The translations under genes and the position numbers were made by a program. 48,251 nucleotides of DNA. Source: Candidatus Adlerbacteria bacterium (lineage in GTDB: Bacteria; Patescibacteriota; Minisyncoccia; Phycocordibacterales; SBAW01). Where the stretch lies: contig PLCJ01000003.1 in assembly GCA_003135635.1 (NCBI GenBank), positions 117,087 through 165,337 of the forward strand, given 5' to 3'. Below the pieces are notes generated by a model. It saw only the letters and a program-made list of their open reading frames with translations. It had not been told where the DNA came from and ran no database searches. Below, one piece after another: positions 18,017 through 24,476 of this stretch (positions are counted from its first letter, which is position 1; each line of letters begins with the position of its first letter).

Positions 18017-19765
18017 ATGAACTGTATGTCATCTCTGGAATATCGCCGGCACACACTTGCCCACTTACTTGCCGCGGCAGTAACTACTCTGTATCCAAAT
18101 GCACTACCAACGATCGGTCCTGCTATCGACACGGGTTTTTATTATGATTTTGATTTCCTTGAAAACACTCTTAAGGAAGAAGATTTAGAAAAACTAGAAA
18201 GGAAAATGCGTGAGCTCTTGGTGGGGTGGAGCGTATTTACTCACCAAGTTACTTCACCCGAAGTGGCGCGCGATTATTTTAAAACCAACCCATACAAGCT
18301 TGAGCTTATCGATGAAATAGAGAAGTCTGGAGAAGTAATTACCCTGTATACCTGTGGCGGCTTTACTGATTTATGTCGTGGCGGACATGCTGAGCATCCG
18401 GCGGAAGAAATCACTGCAGATTCTTTCACGCTGGAGCGTATAGCGGGCGCCTACTGGCGTGGCAATGAAAAAAATACCATGCTCACGCGTGTGTATGGTG
18501 TAGCCTTTGATAGTAATAAAGAACTTGAGAGATATAAAGGACAAAAAGAAGAAGCAGAAAAACGCGACCATAGAAAGTTGGGAAAGGAACTTGATTTATT
18601 TACATTTTCTGAACTCGTCGGTGGTGGTCTTCCCCTATTCACCCCAAAAGGTACTATTTTGCGCGATGAAATAGATGCGTACTCGCAGACACTTCGTACC
18701 GCCCGTGGATTCAGCAAAGTATGGATTCCGCATATCACAAAAACCAATTTATATAAAACCTCAGGCCATTGGGAAAAATTTGGGCATGAACTATTTCTTG
18801 TCAAAAGCCAAGAGACACAGGATGATTTTGTGCTCAAACCAATGAACTGTCCGCATCATGCGCAAATATATGTTTCTCGGCCACGAAGCTATCGAGATTT
18901 ACCTATTCGCTATCTCGAAACTACTGCGGTGTATCGCGATGAAAAAACGGGAGAGCTTTCTGGCCTCTCTCGTGTCCGGGCTATAACACAAGATGACAGC
19001 CATATTTTCTGTCGATTTGATCAAATTGAACAAGAATATGCATCGATTATGGAAATGGTGACTGAGTTTTACGCAACCATGGGGATGCAGTTTCGTGCAC
19101 GACTCTCTTTCCATGATTCTGCTAATCTAGGAAAATATCTGGGCGAAGAGTCGCAATGGAAAGAAGCGGAGGAAAAACTTGAATCAATTTCTAAACGTGG
19201 AAATTTCGACTACTTTATTGCGCGCGGAGAAGCAGCATTTTACGGCCCCAAGATCGATTTTATGGCTACCGATGCACTGGGACGTGAACACCAGCTTGCT
19301 ACAGCACAACTGGATTTTGTACAACCGGCCCGTTTTGAACTTGAATACACTGATTCTGATGGAATTAAAAAGACACCCATTATGATTCATCTTGCTATTG
19401 CTGGATCGCTTGAGCGGTTCCTTTCGATCTATATTGAACACACCGCCGGAGTATTTCCTCTATGGCTTTCCCCGGTGCAGGCGCGCATCTTGCCTATTGC
19501 CGAAACCCATCATGTCTTCGCGCAAAGAGCATTTGAGGAGCTTAAGACCGCAGGAATTCGTATAGAGCTCGATGATTCCAATGAAACCTTGGGCAAAAAG
19601 ATTCGTGCTGCGAAACAAGAAAAAATTCCTTATCTTCTCGTTATGGGAGACAGCGAAGTGCATGCTCAAACCGCAACGCTGGAAGGTCGAACAAATAAAA
19701 TTGGAACATTTCCTATAGCGCAAATAATCCTACAGCTTAAAGAAGAAATTGCTGCAAGAAAATAA
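18017..19765 (+). CDS. thrS: Threonyl-tRNA synthetase lacking an N-terminal TGS domain
   Basis: HTLAHLLAAAV editing domain; class II core KPMNCPHHAQIY, RDEKTGELSGLSRVRAITQDDSHIFC. Confidence 0.95.
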   Translation: MNCMSSLEYRRHTLAHLLAAAVTTLYPNALPTIGPAIDTGFYYDFDFLENTLKEEDLEKLERKMRELLVGWSVFTHQVTSPEVARDYFKTNPYKLELIDEIEKSGEVITLYTCGGFTDLCRGGHAEHPAEEITADSFTLERIAGAYWRGNEKNTMLTRVYGVAFDSNKELERYKGQKEEAEKRDHRKLGKELDLFTFSELVGGGLPLFTPKGTILRDEIDAYSQTLRTARGFSKVWIPHITKTNLYKTSGHWEKFGHELFLVKSQETQDDFVLKPMNCPHHAQIYVSRPRSYRDLPIRYLETTAVYRDEKTGELSGLSRVRAITQDDSHIFCRFDQIEQEYASIMEMVTEFYATMGMQFRARLSFHDSANLGKYLGEESQWKEAEEKLESISKRGNFDYFIARGEAAFYGPKIDFMATDALGREHQLATAQLDFVQPARFELEYTDSDGIKKTPIMIHLAIAGSLERFLSIYIEHTAGVFPLWLSPVQARILPIAETHHVFAQRAFEELKTAGIRIELDDSNETLGKKIRAAKQEKIPYLLVMGDSEVHAQTATLEGRTNKIGTFPIAQIILQLKEEIAARK

Positions 19766-19844: not shown

Positions 19845-21059
19845 TTAAGCACGAGCGCGATTAATTTGGGAAGTGATGAAATCATCTACTCTTGAAGAAG
19901 AATCCGTTACTGGGTGAGCTAGTCTAGGTGTAATTACTTGTATAGGTTTCTCATCGGTCACAGCAACCACAGTTGCCGGGGTGCCGAAAAGAAAAGTTCT
20001 AAGCCAAGCGACGACACGATTCTGGACGCGCTTTACCACAATAAGGTACGCACCAACCAAGCACCAGAGAATGAGAAACGACCAATAGACAACGGTGCCC
20101 ACAGGCCCAAGATCAAGACCAGTGTAGGGTACTTGAGAAAGTGCCACATAAGGAGTCGTTGGATTGTTATAGACTATCGGTGCAATATAATTGTTGACAG
20201 ATACTGCCGCAGAGCAAGTCACTTGTTGACCGTTCTGACCATAGAAGGTGCCCGTATAAGTGGTGCTTTGTGTTGGATACACTAGCGTTGAGCCACTTTG
20301 ACCAACCGAACCGACATAGCTTATGGAACCAGAGTTAACATACTGTGTATTCCAACTGAGTGTCACTGGCTGGTTATACTGCACAGCGGTCGGTGATGCC
20401 GTTAGAGTACAACTTGGATAGTTATAGGTTGGAGTGGGATAGTTATACGCGACTGGATAAGAGGGAGCGGGAGGCGGATAGTTATACACGATTGGAGCAG
20501 GAGCAGGAGGCGGCTGTGAAATCGTGATTACATTGTTATTTGTATTGTTATTGTTGTTTACATTAGTATTGGTCACTACGGTTGGTGAAGATGCTTGTAT
20601 AGGCTGTTGGAAATAATTTGGCATCTGGTAAGACGGGTAAGAGTAACCATAGTTTGTATAGTACGGGTTTGAGTAAGAAGGAGTTGAGTAAGAAGAAGAA
20701 TAGCCGCATCCGCCACCACAGTTTCCGTAGTCGACATATCCATTACTAATCCCGCTTGGATCATATATGGTGTTATAAGGATCACCGGGAAGACTTGTTT
20801 GGCCATTTGGATTACCCCAAGTATTATTCGGAATCAGTCCAGAAGCATAAGGATCAGTGCCATAGCTAGGCTGGCTGGTGTAGTCAGGTGAGGTATTAGC
20901 AAATGGATCAGTGCTCGGGTCACAGGAGTAATCGCCACAGTCTTGTGCATGGGCGGTTTGCACGTGCAAAATAGGAAACATAATAAGAAATGCCACGGCA
21001 ATTACCATGTAAAACGACCAAGACAAGCTCTGTTGCAACGATAAAGTAAAAGTTTTCAT
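19845..21059 (-). CDS. Secreted, Tyr/Pro/Ser/Asn-rich surface protein with Ig-like domain, VPYTG + TM sorting-signal-like region and about 75-aa cytoplasmic tail
   Basis: N-terminal signal sequence (..AVAFLIMFPILHVQTAHAQD); low-complexity YPSY/NNNN region; CTLTASPTAVQYNQPVTLSWN...C Ig-like segment; VPYTGLDLGPVGTVVYWSFLILWCLVGAYLIVVKR. Confidence 0.75.
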   Translation of the reverse strand: MKTFTLSLQQSLSWSFYMVIAVAFLIMFPILHVQTAHAQDCGDYSCDPSTDPFANTSPDYTSQPSYGTDPYASGLIPNNTWGNPNGQTSLPGDPYNTIYDPSGISNGYVDYGNCGGGCGYSSSYSTPSYSNPYYTNYGYSYPSYQMPNYFQQPIQASSPTVVTNTNVNNNNNTNNNVITISQPPPAPAPIVYNYPPPAPSYPVAYNYPTPTYNYPSCTLTASPTAVQYNQPVTLSWNTQYVNSGSISYVGSVGQSGSTLVYPTQSTTYTGTFYGQNGQQVTCSAAVSVNNYIAPIVYNNPTTPYVALSQVPYTGLDLGPVGTVVYWSFLILWCLVGAYLIVVKRVQNRVVAWLRTFLFGTPATVVAVTDEKPIQVITPRLAHPVTDSSSRVDDFITSQINRARA

Positions 21060-21086
21060 AAGACTATTTTGATAATTAACCTACTT

Positions 21087-21115
21087 GTAATACCACCTAC
21101 TAATAATTTTGTCAA
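21087..21115 (-). promoter_or_regulatory. Promoter of the 404-aa surface protein: TTGACA-17-TATTAC
   Basis: Minus TTGACA at 21110-21115, TATTAC at 21087-21092. Confidence 0.5.
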
Positions 21116-21192
21116 GAACCGAACGATATTCTAACTATTTGGAAACTTCCCTTGAGAATCTTCCAAATTTTAAAATTCGTTTGTTGATAAAG

Positions 21193-21236
21193 ATCGGGGG
21201 GAGCACGCAGTGTTGTTACCACGTGCTCCGACCGAT
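21193..21236 (-). terminator. Two-step hairpin (ATCGG..GGAGCACG / CGTGCTCC..CCGAT) downstream of the 388-aa ORF; possible terminator
   Basis: 5 bp + 2x2 internal loop + 8 bp stem, 14-nt loop; only a weak U-tract follows on the minus strand. Confidence 0.45.
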
Positions 21237-21282
21237 ACTAGGGATTATCTAAGCTCCGAAATGCCATCCTGTCTCCTAAGAG

Positions 21283-22449
21283 TTAATGACGGCCGCGTTC
21301 GAAAGCTTCGCCGACTGCCCCTAACAGCTCGGCGAAGACGTAGTTTCCTTGGTATTGACTTGAGGGTGCGAAGTGCAACCCCGTCTGCCAGTTACCGTAC
21401 GGAGACGCGTCTTTGGTCAAGATCGCGATCTTCCGGTTGAAGACCACGTTGACTTTTCCAGGATGGAACTCTCCTGCCCGGTAGCGACGTTGCGCTTCAT
21501 TAATCGCTCGCCGCGCTTCGGCGAGGTCGATCTCGTATCCCTGGCCCGTGGGGCTACCTTCGAGGCACAAGTGCACTCGAAGCGCATTCACGATATCGCA
21601 AGGAAATCCATAAAACCGACGTTGGTCGTTATATCCGATAATGAAGTGTCCCGAAGGTCTGCCGTTGATATCAATACGGAGTGTTTGGGGTCTATTGAAT
21701 CCGCGCACTTCCGCACCTAACCAACAGTCCATTTCCATCTTCGGCAACAACACAACTGGCGCAGGAGCCTGAATTGGTGCTTGCGTAGGTGCGACTGGCG
21801 GAGCTGTGCATATCACAGATACGTCAGCAACGGCCGAAGCTGTTGCATTCGCTATCATGGATCGGCCAACGTTTTCGTCCTTTCTGGCGACCTCCGTCGC
21901 TGAGACATGAGGTACACCATCCTGACCTATGCAAGTCGCCTTCGCTTTCGCATCGGCGTAAGCTAGAGCGATCGGTTTTAATGGTTGCGGTGTTACTACG
22001 ACCGCAACTTGCTTTACTGCCTTGTTGGCAACATTGCCGCTGCGCAGGTCGATGACGGGAACGTTCCCGTCGTATAGGGCAAAGCCCGGACCGAGCTTGG
22101 AATCGTCGAACGTCCGTGTAATGACCCTGCAGCTGTTCCAACCCAGCGCGCTTGTTAAAAGCGGCCCGGAAGGAACTGGCTTTGATGTCAACCCTTGTAC
22201 GTAACTGACAAGATGATCCAGAGGTACGTCTAGCTCCTCGGCATACTGCCGAGGAGTGGCGGCACATGGATATCCTTTCAGCCGCACCGTGCCGTTCGAG
22301 CGCTGCTCGAAGGACTGTTCTAGCTGGTTCAGAAGCTCGACCTTCCCGCTGGGGCTATTCGAGATATTGGACATCTTGATGAGGCTCTCCGCCTCAGATA
22401 CGCTCCCCAACAGGAGGAAGAGCACGAAGCCGCTGAGAAGACTCTTCAC
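21283..22449 (-). CDS. Secreted protein of unknown function (388 aa, GTG start, signal peptide)
   Basis: MKSLLSGFVLFLLLGSVSEAES signal peptide; strong SD-like AGGAGAAAGGAT before the GTG; no recognised family. Confidence 0.65.
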   Translation of the reverse strand: MKSLLSGFVLFLLLGSVSEAESLIKMSNISNSPSGKVELLNQLEQSFEQRSNGTVRLKGYPCAATPRQYAEELDVPLDHLVSYVQGLTSKPVPSGPLLTSALGWNSCRVITRTFDDSKLGPGFALYDGNVPVIDLRSGNVANKAVKQVAVVVTPQPLKPIALAYADAKAKATCIGQDGVPHVSATEVARKDENVGRSMIANATASAVADVSVICTAPPVAPTQAPIQAPAPVVLLPKMEMDCWLGAEVRGFNRPQTLRIDINGRPSGHFIIGYNDQRRFYGFPCDIVNALRVHLCLEGSPTGQGYEIDLAEARRAINEAQRRYRAGEFHPGKVNVVFNRKIAILTKDASPYGNWQTGLHFAPSSQYQGNYVFAELLGAVGEAFERGRH

Positions 22450-22541
22450 GACTTATCCTTTCTCCTCTCCTTTCAGGGGAGGAAACATGTGTAGTGTTAA
22501 TGTACTATCCTCGCGCTTTACGAGGACGTATCCAATCACGC

Positions 22542-23201
22542 TTACTGCGTGAACGGATACGTTCCCACAAAATCTGCTGTTACTACAAACCGATCTGTCT
22601 TTTCGCCAAATGAATCACAAGTTACAAGAGTAAGATGCTGACCAGCTTGCGTGAGATCTACAACATCTTGTGTAGCGCTTGCAAGTTTAACGGAGACTAC
22701 GGTGTAGCGATATTCCGCTGTAGCTGAATAGACACTGACGATATTCCCTTCCTTCAGATTCTGAATGCCATCAAACGTTTTGTACATTTGATCGTTCAAA
22801 ATGGGCAGATAGCTTGAATGACCGAATATGAGCACGGTGCCACTTTCTCCCAAATCTGCCGAGGTCGGATAACGTACGGCACCTATGAGGAGTGCCTTAT
22901 CCAGCGTAGCTGTATCAGTTGAAGTTGGATTTGATACTTTGACATCAAGTTTGATGTCTTGAGCAACAATCCGTACTGGATATTCACCTTGACCTTGCGG
23001 AATACTCTTTGGTGACGCTGCTTGGATAGACTGCGCAGTGTTGGCGCTTTGAGTATCTGCAGAAGTAATCGTAGGATCAGGATTTGCACCTACAAGGACA
23101 AGAAAGAGAAATGTCGCAGAAAACAAGCCTACAAATGTAAGCGAGAACTGGCCGCGACGAGCGGTGACCTCTTTTATTGCTCCAGGGTACTCTTTTTGCA
23201 T
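22542..23201 (-). CDS. Sortase family transpeptidase
   Basis: N-terminal TM anchor; GESGTVLIFGHSSYLP (His), LTLVTCDSFGEKTDRFVV (TxTC Cys and downstream Arg). Confidence 0.88.
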   Translation of the reverse strand: MQKEYPGAIKEVTARRGQFSLTFVGLFSATFLFLVLVGANPDPTITSADTQSANTAQSIQAASPKSIPQGQGEYPVRIVAQDIKLDVKVSNPTSTDTATLDKALLIGAVRYPTSADLGESGTVLIFGHSSYLPILNDQMYKTFDGIQNLKEGNIVSVYSATAEYRYTVVSVKLASATQDVVDLTQAGQHLTLVTCDSFGEKTDRFVVTADFVGTYPFTQ

Positions 23202-23242
23202 ATGACTGCCTCTTTCATAGGGCTCTATTGGGAAGCGTCTAT

Positions 23243-23271
23243 ATGCTACACTATATAACTATATTTGTCAA
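23243..23271 (-). promoter_or_regulatory. Proximal sortase promoter TTGACA-17-TAGCAT
   Basis: Minus TTGACA 23266-23271, TAGCAT 23243-23248; about 40 nt before the sortase ATG. Confidence 0.5.
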
Positions 23272-23325
23272 GTACCATCTGTAAGGACCTGCGCGAAGTA
23301 CTTTTTGAGATTAATTCTAGAGTAG

Positions 23326-23353
23326 AGTCTACATTATATATTATATTTGTCAA
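23326..23353 (-). promoter_or_regulatory. Distal sortase promoter TTGACA-16-TAGACT
   Basis: Minus TTGACA 23348-23353, TAGACT 23326-23331; near-duplicate of the proximal element. Confidence 0.4.
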
Positions 23354-23364
23354 GCTTTGCATGC

Positions 23365-23393
23365 TTGACAATAAAGATACGGCGTGATACGGT
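23365..23393 (+). promoter_or_regulatory. Divergent promoter for the CARDB-like protein: TTGACA-17-(TGA)TACGGT
   Basis: Plus TTGACA 23365-23370, TACGGT 23388-23393, ATG at 23403. Confidence 0.45.
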
Positions 23394-23402
23394 AGCGCCC
23401 TT

Positions 23403-24476
23403 ATGCAAAAGGATATTGATGCTCCTGCCACCCCATACAAGGACACATTTTTACGTGTTGTTGCGATTATTGGCCTTATTGCTCTTATCATTCTTGGGGC
23501 TTGGGGCATTATTCAAATTGTTTTTAACCTGCCCTCTCTCTTCGGGAGTGTCGGCGACAAAACTCAAACTCTATTCGCACCCGCATCAAAAACCGAATCA
23601 GTAGTGGTTACCCTACCCGCGACCGCATCTTCTGGAGAACCGTTCACCATATCTTGGATACACCAAAACTCTCCTTCGGGTGATTTCGCCTACACTATTT
23701 CATACTCTTGCAGCACTGGACTCTCGCTCAAGGCTCCAACACCAACGGGAATATTTCAGTCAGTCCCCTGCGCAACACCGTTTGATTACACAAATGCAAC
23801 TCAAAACATGCAGGTAGTGCCAACCGTGACTACATCTAACTCGCTCTCTGCGGTAATTTCTGTGTCCGCAATTTCTCTTGCAAACGGCGCTGTCACTACA
23901 ACTGGCAGCAGCACTATCACCATATCTCCTTCTCAAAATAGCCCAGCAGTGGCGACACCCATACCCACTACTCCATTGCCGGCACAAAAACCCGCTGTAA
24001 TTAAAAAAGTTACTACAGTTGCTCGGTCTTATTCCAATCCAAACGGTACACCCGATCTAGCAGTACAAATTATTTCCGTCATACCAGAAGGTAATGGTCT
24101 TACTTCGGTTGAATTTGCTATTGAAAACCTGGGCAATAAAGCAACACCGTACGGCTGGACATTTGCTGCCAACTTGCCAGTTGGGTATGCCTATACCTAC
24201 TACTCCCAACCCCAGCGGGCACTCTATCCTGGGGGCAGGATTATATACACGCTTACTTTTAGTGGGGCAAACAACAACCAAATGCCGTATACCAGCGGGT
24301 GCTACACTCAAGGGCAAATTACTTATCCTTCGTACCAGAATTGTTATGGCTACAGCAATCCAATATATGCCACCAACGGTACGGTCACAATCACGGTTGA
24401 TCCTGGTAATCTCATCTACGAGACAAATAAAGCAAACAACACCGCTAGTGTCAGCGTCCCTGTTACTACCTACTAA
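23403..24476 (+). CDS. Membrane-anchored extracellular protein with C-terminal CARDB-like domain
   Basis: TM RVVAIIGLIALIILGAWGIIQIVF; C-terminal TPDLAVQIISVIPEGNGLTSVEFAIENLGN...GNLIYETNKANNTASVSVPV. Confidence 0.7.
   Translation: MQKDIDAPATPYKDTFLRVVAIIGLIALIILGAWGIIQIVFNLPSLFGSVGDKTQTLFAPASKTESVVVTLPATASSGEPFTISWIHQNSPSGDFAYTISYSCSTGLSLKAPTPTGIFQSVPCATPFDYTNATQNMQVVPTVTTSNSLSAVISVSAISLANGAVTTTGSSTITISPSQNSPAVATPIPTTPLPAQKPAVIKKVTTVARSYSNPNGTPDLAVQIISVIPEGNGLTSVEFAIENLGNKATPYGWTFAANLPVGYAYTYYSQPQRALYPGGRIIYTLTFSGANNNQMPYTSGCYTQGQITYPSYQNCYGYSNPIYATNGTVTITVDPGNLIYETNKANNTASVSVPVTTY

Follow-up and report, generated by a model that had tools for sequence, protein, structure and literature searches.

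Why a single protein-coding sequence should be packed with perfect inverted repeats is the question raised by a gene of a Candidatus Adlerbacteria genome (602,608 bases in three contigs). The gene, coding for a protein of 388 amino acids, occupies positions 21283-22449 (minus strand) of the window, i.e. the whole stretch of 48,251 nucleotides analysed here (C1:117087-165337), and no family or relative was found for its product. The preliminary description of this DNA regarded it as an unplaced, GC-rich gene, perhaps horizontally acquired, whose mRNA might be a structured RNA as well as a message.

The 388-aa gene and its inverted repeats

The coding sequence begins with a GTG codon, upstream of which a Shine-Dalgarno-like AAAGGA can be read (22456-22461, minus), and its product has an N-terminal segment resembling a secretion signal; the protein ends in ELLGAVGEAFERGRH and carries no C-terminal sorting signal. 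The gene is indeed GC-richer than its neighbours, with 55.0% G+C (GC3 0.59) vs 44-47% (GC3 0.36-0.42) in the adjoining genes. Past the stop codon, where the slot described below ends, there is a stem with an arm of 8 and a loop of 14 (21200-21229, minus), terminator-like by position only.

All ten inverted repeats claimed within the CDS were found at their reported positions, and eight of them are perfect with an arm of at least 7 and a loop of at most 15 (arms 7-10, loops up to 14). In the order in which they occur in the message, all on the minus strand, these are a stem with arm 7 and loop 3 (22295-22311), a stem with arm 10 and loop 3 (22234-22256), a palindrome with arm 9 (22054-22071), a stem with arm 8 and loop 9 (21984-22008), a stem of 7 + 4 pairs with a one-base bulge (21558-21582), a stem with arm 7 and loop 5 (21507-21525), a palindrome with arm 7 (21419-21432), and a stem with arm 9 and loop 14 (21306-21337). 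The remaining two, CCGTACGG and AGACGCGTCT, are shorter palindromes with arms of 4 and 5, respectively. An eleventh repeat, placed just upstream of the ribosome-binding site (22464-22482), turned out not to be perfect: it has four outer pairs followed by a plus-strand T.G, which in the message is a C.A mismatch.

The marked excess of stems that had been proposed for this gene withstands codon-level controls, as synonymous-codon shuffling gives 1.15 stems vs the eight present (one shuffle in 2000 reaches eight) and shuffling of whole codons 0.93 (none in 2000). No other gene in the window matches its stem density. Among the 375 ORFs of at least 100 aa in about 405 kb of this one genome, the CDS ranks first for stem excess (P = 1.3e-5, the next-lowest value being 3.6e-3), and of the 25 stems with an arm of at least 9 found in these ORFs three lie inside it. 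Local folding of its mRNA is likewise the most extreme of the 375, with z = -5.2 against a mean of -0.42 (sd 1.20). Relative to synonymous shuffles the folding z ranges from -4.8 to -5.4, and it is -4.3 when dinucleotides are also held. The strands differ little (-4.8 sense, -4.3 antisense), so that the sense bias is weak in this gene alone, and taken alone it shows no enrichment of stems containing G-U pairs (two G-U vs eight A-C stems at arm 7). A search of Rfam with positions 20000-24000 gave no match at E <= 1.

The possibility that genes for secreted proteins are simply structured was rejected, since 78 secreted-like ORFs of the same genome have a mean z of -0.44 vs -0.42 for the rest. 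Two more GC-rich (0.58-0.59), lipoprotein-like ORFs are present in this genome, C3:50014-50559 (L076) and C1:92791-93618 (L006), and the former is rather structured too (z = -3.4).

A conserved sortase locus with a variable slot

The gene can be placed, as the variable member of a sortase locus with the conserved order gyrB, a CARDB-like gene, a sortase gene, a variable slot, a gene for a substrate with a PYTG motif, and thrS. The order is kept in most relatives in which the locus could be read through, and it is widespread in loci titled Candidatus Adlerbacteria, Kaiserbacteria, Nomurabacteria and Patescibacteria. The upstream neighbour of the 388-aa CDS codes for the sortase (22542-23201, minus; PF04203, 65.9 bits), in which His128, Cys195 and Arg204 are invariant in 15 relatives; the enzyme was found in all 35 genomes of the genus that were examined, mostly at 48-61% identity. 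On the other side of the sortase gene lies that of the CARDB-like protein (23403-24476, plus), whose match to PF07705 is below the cut-off, and the far border of the locus is formed by thrS (18017-19765, plus).

The gene beyond the slot (19845-21059, minus) codes for a secreted surface protein, whose translation contains a VPYTG sorting motif (residues 310-314; 20118-20132, minus) ahead of a hydrophobic segment and KR. PYTG is kept in most relatives of this protein, which, by comparison with known sorting signals, is very probably the substrate of the neighbouring sortase. A promoter-like TTGACA-N17-TATTAC was read upstream of its gene (21087-21115, minus), and the gene therefore probably forms a separate unit. 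Counterparts rich in TTGACA, resembling TTGACA(A/G)..TTATTAG, occur at the ends of slots including those of L049 and L063.

In relatives the slot contains a single ORF or several, encoded on the same strand as the sortase, and its gene content differs between almost all genomes. Since slot genes are found in relatives at the same place, no misassembly need be assumed, and since the cargo differs almost everywhere, the relatives can be regarded as near-independent replicates of the position.

Structure of slot messages as a class

The class was examined with 84 slot CDSs from 57 loci and 84 flank CDSs, the ORFs being picked mechanically. Perfect stems in slots are 2.10 times as frequent as expected from synonymous shuffles (1.34 times in flanks), and those with an arm of at least 9 are 4.2 times as frequent (2.8 times in flanks). 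The mild excess in ordinary flank genes (L086-L165; the same 1.34-fold and 2.8-fold values) is a general background in these bacteria. Outside the slot, one outlier was encountered, a thrS fragment of Candidatus Kaiserbacteria Baikal-deep-G203 (L109:9903-11126, minus; the same gene as in L063) with eight perfect stems vs 1.4 expected.

Folding separates the two sets much more sharply. For slot CDSs the mean z is -3.55 (sense strand) and -2.64 (antisense strand), vs -0.54 and -0.57 in flank CDSs; the slot-flank difference on the sense strand has P = 4e-20, and the difference between strands, with P = 4e-8 in slots, is absent from flanks (P = 0.88). A mean z below -1.5 characterizes 93% of the 57 slot loci vs 11% of flank loci. 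The sortase, substrate, CARDB-like, thrS and gyrB genes of the same loci are near ordinary (z from -0.6 to -1.6). The effect spans the whole ORF, does not depend on the order of genes in the slot, and is present in both nearer and farther loci. The suggestion that the mRNA is structured as well as being a message is thus supported beyond the single gene, since mostly non-homologous genes in the slot of 57 loci behave alike, more so on the sense strand.

Two further properties concern the pairs themselves. Stems with one G-U pair are found in slots at 2.90 times and those with one A-C mismatch at 1.88 times expectation (bootstrap interval of the difference 0.23 to 1.85), the flank values being 1.18 and 1.06. 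An early reading of the repeats as an excess at the DNA level, based on the 388-aa gene and five others with no G-U preference, was revised after this comparison in the 84 CDSs. Predicted pairs are also retained between related slot genes (mean z 1.24 vs -0.04 for controls), unevenly and not in every pair of genes.

Slot genes are GC-richer than flanks (0.583 vs 0.538), and an artefact of base composition was considered and rejected, as the excess survives shuffles preserving codons and dinucleotides together with GC-matched flanks (slots z = -2.88, flanks -0.46, P = 5e-18). An artefact of wrongly chosen reading frames was rejected by a frame-free test with dinucleotide-shuffled windows of 120 nt, in which 52 of 59 loci show stronger folding in the slot than in the DNA upstream of it (P = 2e-8), with a sense bias in the slot only.

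Proteins encoded in the slot

Many slot ORFs have N-termini of the secretion, lipoprotein or twin-arginine-like type, and a crude rule classifies 76% of them as secreted-like. The 388-aa protein is an orphan even within the slot. Nothing convincing was found for it in Pfam, NCBIfam, PHROGs, PDB sequences, phages, plasmids, IMG/VR and GTDB contigs, nor in 60 relatives and 384 genomes of the class, with none in the genus, and the best phmmer match to slot proteins (E = 0.1) lies around a proline-rich linker. Similarities noticed by eye (GNW, VxLCLE) were dropped when comparison with the profiles of two slot families yielded no match. An AlphaFold model made without an alignment had a pLDDT of 36 and was unusable.

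Some other slot genes do form families. Two of these, one of the Adlerbacteria and one of the Kaiserbacteria type, match each other (97.9%, E = 6e-13) and are connected by an N-terminal domain with the pattern W..PG.DPY ... PEVCxNW; the 388-aa protein has no match to the Kaiserbacteria-type profile of this superfamily. For a slot-family member modelled at pLDDT 83, no solved or viral structure was matched at E <= 0.001. Pfam searched with ten slot proteins gave a sole match, an F5/8-type C domain in one of them, and PHROGs names none of the slot proteins scanned. A small secreted-like family ending in an RCxxxGxPSGGPGTGTGWC-like motif is present in the slots of L058, L060, L063, L082 and L084. 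It is worth adding that in the slots of L047, L059, L063, L079 and L080 strong hairpins directly past the stop codons lead into a tail resembling CACCACTT or ACCACATTTTT in place of an immediate T run, possibly representing an unusual terminator.

Origin of the structure

The reading that we consider probable, with some reserve, is that the 388-aa CDS is a variable cargo gene of a Paceibacteria sortase/PYTG-substrate locus whose slot messages are selected for local RNA structure along the whole ORF, the perfect repeats and the raised GC3 being the visible result. Selection would then act at the level of RNA, perhaps on variants that arise by a strand-symmetric mutational process. Such a process leads to an explanation that has a small but real chance of being sufficient by itself, namely that template switching during replication (quasi-palindrome correction), a documented mechanism (PMC8794818), writes perfect repeats into a fast-evolving, weakly constrained locus, where the hairpins would be functionless. 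The strongest enrichment is that of perfect stems, which stand at 4.36 times expectation in slots and, as this explanation would have it, are also raised in flanks (2.50 times), and much of the signal is found on both strands. However, a purely mutational process should be strand-symmetric, so the excess of sense over antisense structure, seen in slots only (P = 4e-8), counts against it, as do the surplus of G-U over A-C stems in slots and the retention, though uneven, of pairs between related slot genes. The same sense bias and G-U excess weigh against a role at the DNA level, which we consider highly improbable, in which hairpins in single-stranded DNA promote the exchange of cargo genes. 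The change of slot content between almost all genomes and the strong antisense-strand signal would suit such a role, but the hairpins lie inside ORFs along their full length and have no common sequence.

Import of a GC-rich gene from another organism, with a composition that makes hairpins likely, would fit an orphan protein whose GC3 of 0.59 far exceeds that of nearby genes and which has no relative in the genus. It is nevertheless an improbable source of the structure: shuffles keeping both codons and dinucleotides leave no room for composition as a cause, and in flanks folding z does not track GC (correlation -0.06). Raised GC is, moreover, common to the slot genes of relatives and is therefore not evidence of foreign origin. 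With no relative found and a fast turnover of the slot, the horizontal acquisition put forward in the preliminary description is no more than a possible origin, one that is not needed and has no power to explain the structure. Finally, the transcript of the slot might be a functional non-coding RNA to which the ORF is secondary. Structure that is sense-biased and kept by position rather than by protein agrees with this idea, to which we give only a very remote chance, as no Rfam match was obtained in positions 20000-24000, no shared RNA architecture was found, and most slot ORFs (76% by the crude rule) resemble proper secreted proteins.

Returning to selection on slot messages, the structure probably tunes the translation or stability of a variable secreted cargo. 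Cargo messages folded along their length, beside the nearly ordinary messages of the sortase and the substrate, might be translated at a low or slow rate, or they might be protected and longer-lived; the high GC3 may be a by-product of the structure. The proposal of low or slow translation draws on an analogy with E. coli operons, in which neighbouring ORFs differ in their ORF-wide structure, and this structure is correlated with the rate of translation (PMC5318159).

Relation to known systems and significance

Coding sequences selected for structure have been estimated at about 2.5% of bacterial ORFs, and the structure scores of homologues were found to be uncorrelated (PMC6544989). Slot genes share with the structured coding sequences surveyed so far (PMC6544989; PMC7063772) an arrangement of synonymous codons far more structured than shuffles along the ORF; those surveys, however, take genes singly, whereas here high structure stays with the position as the proteins change. 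The sharp difference between adjacent ORFs, i.e. between the slot and the sortase and substrate genes, recalls the ORF-centric units of E. coli, in which structure was measured together with translation (PMC5318159); for the slot it is known from computation only, and many genomes show the contrast at one and the same locus. Perfect inverted repeats within protein-coding sequence are also known from the mitochondria of Nematomorpha, but those reach 284 bp in conserved respiratory genes (PMC6649704), in contrast to the slot arms of 7-15 in fast-changing genes. Hairpins made by template switching (PMC8794818) likewise include perfect stems that can be made in one step, but the mechanism predicts no sense-strand bias such as slots show. 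In common with other loci of sortases and sorted surface proteins, the sortase gene lies near that of a substrate in which xPYTG is accompanied by a hydrophobic segment and basic residues; this locus differs in having a hypervariable slot of structured cargo between the two, and in a 388-aa cargo protein that has no sorting signal. Structured coding RNA is already known, but structure that stays with a position while the proteins are mostly non-homologous was not found described in the literature searched and appears to be new.

A further-reaching proposal, which we put forward tentatively and hold to be somewhat doubtful, is that in Paceibacteria this position forces a strongly structured message on any secreted-protein gene that comes to lie in the slot, so that RNA structure is inherited by the locus and not by the protein family, and that the folded cargo RNA is itself functional, e.g. 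in pacing the translation of exported, fast-changing surface factors. A syntenic slot in which mostly unrelated cargo is repeatedly found with strong, sense-biased structure offers natural replicates for asking why messages should be folded. The bacteria concerned are uncultured and probably symbiotic, their surface biology is little known, and the slot points to a locus of fast-changing secreted proteins in them.
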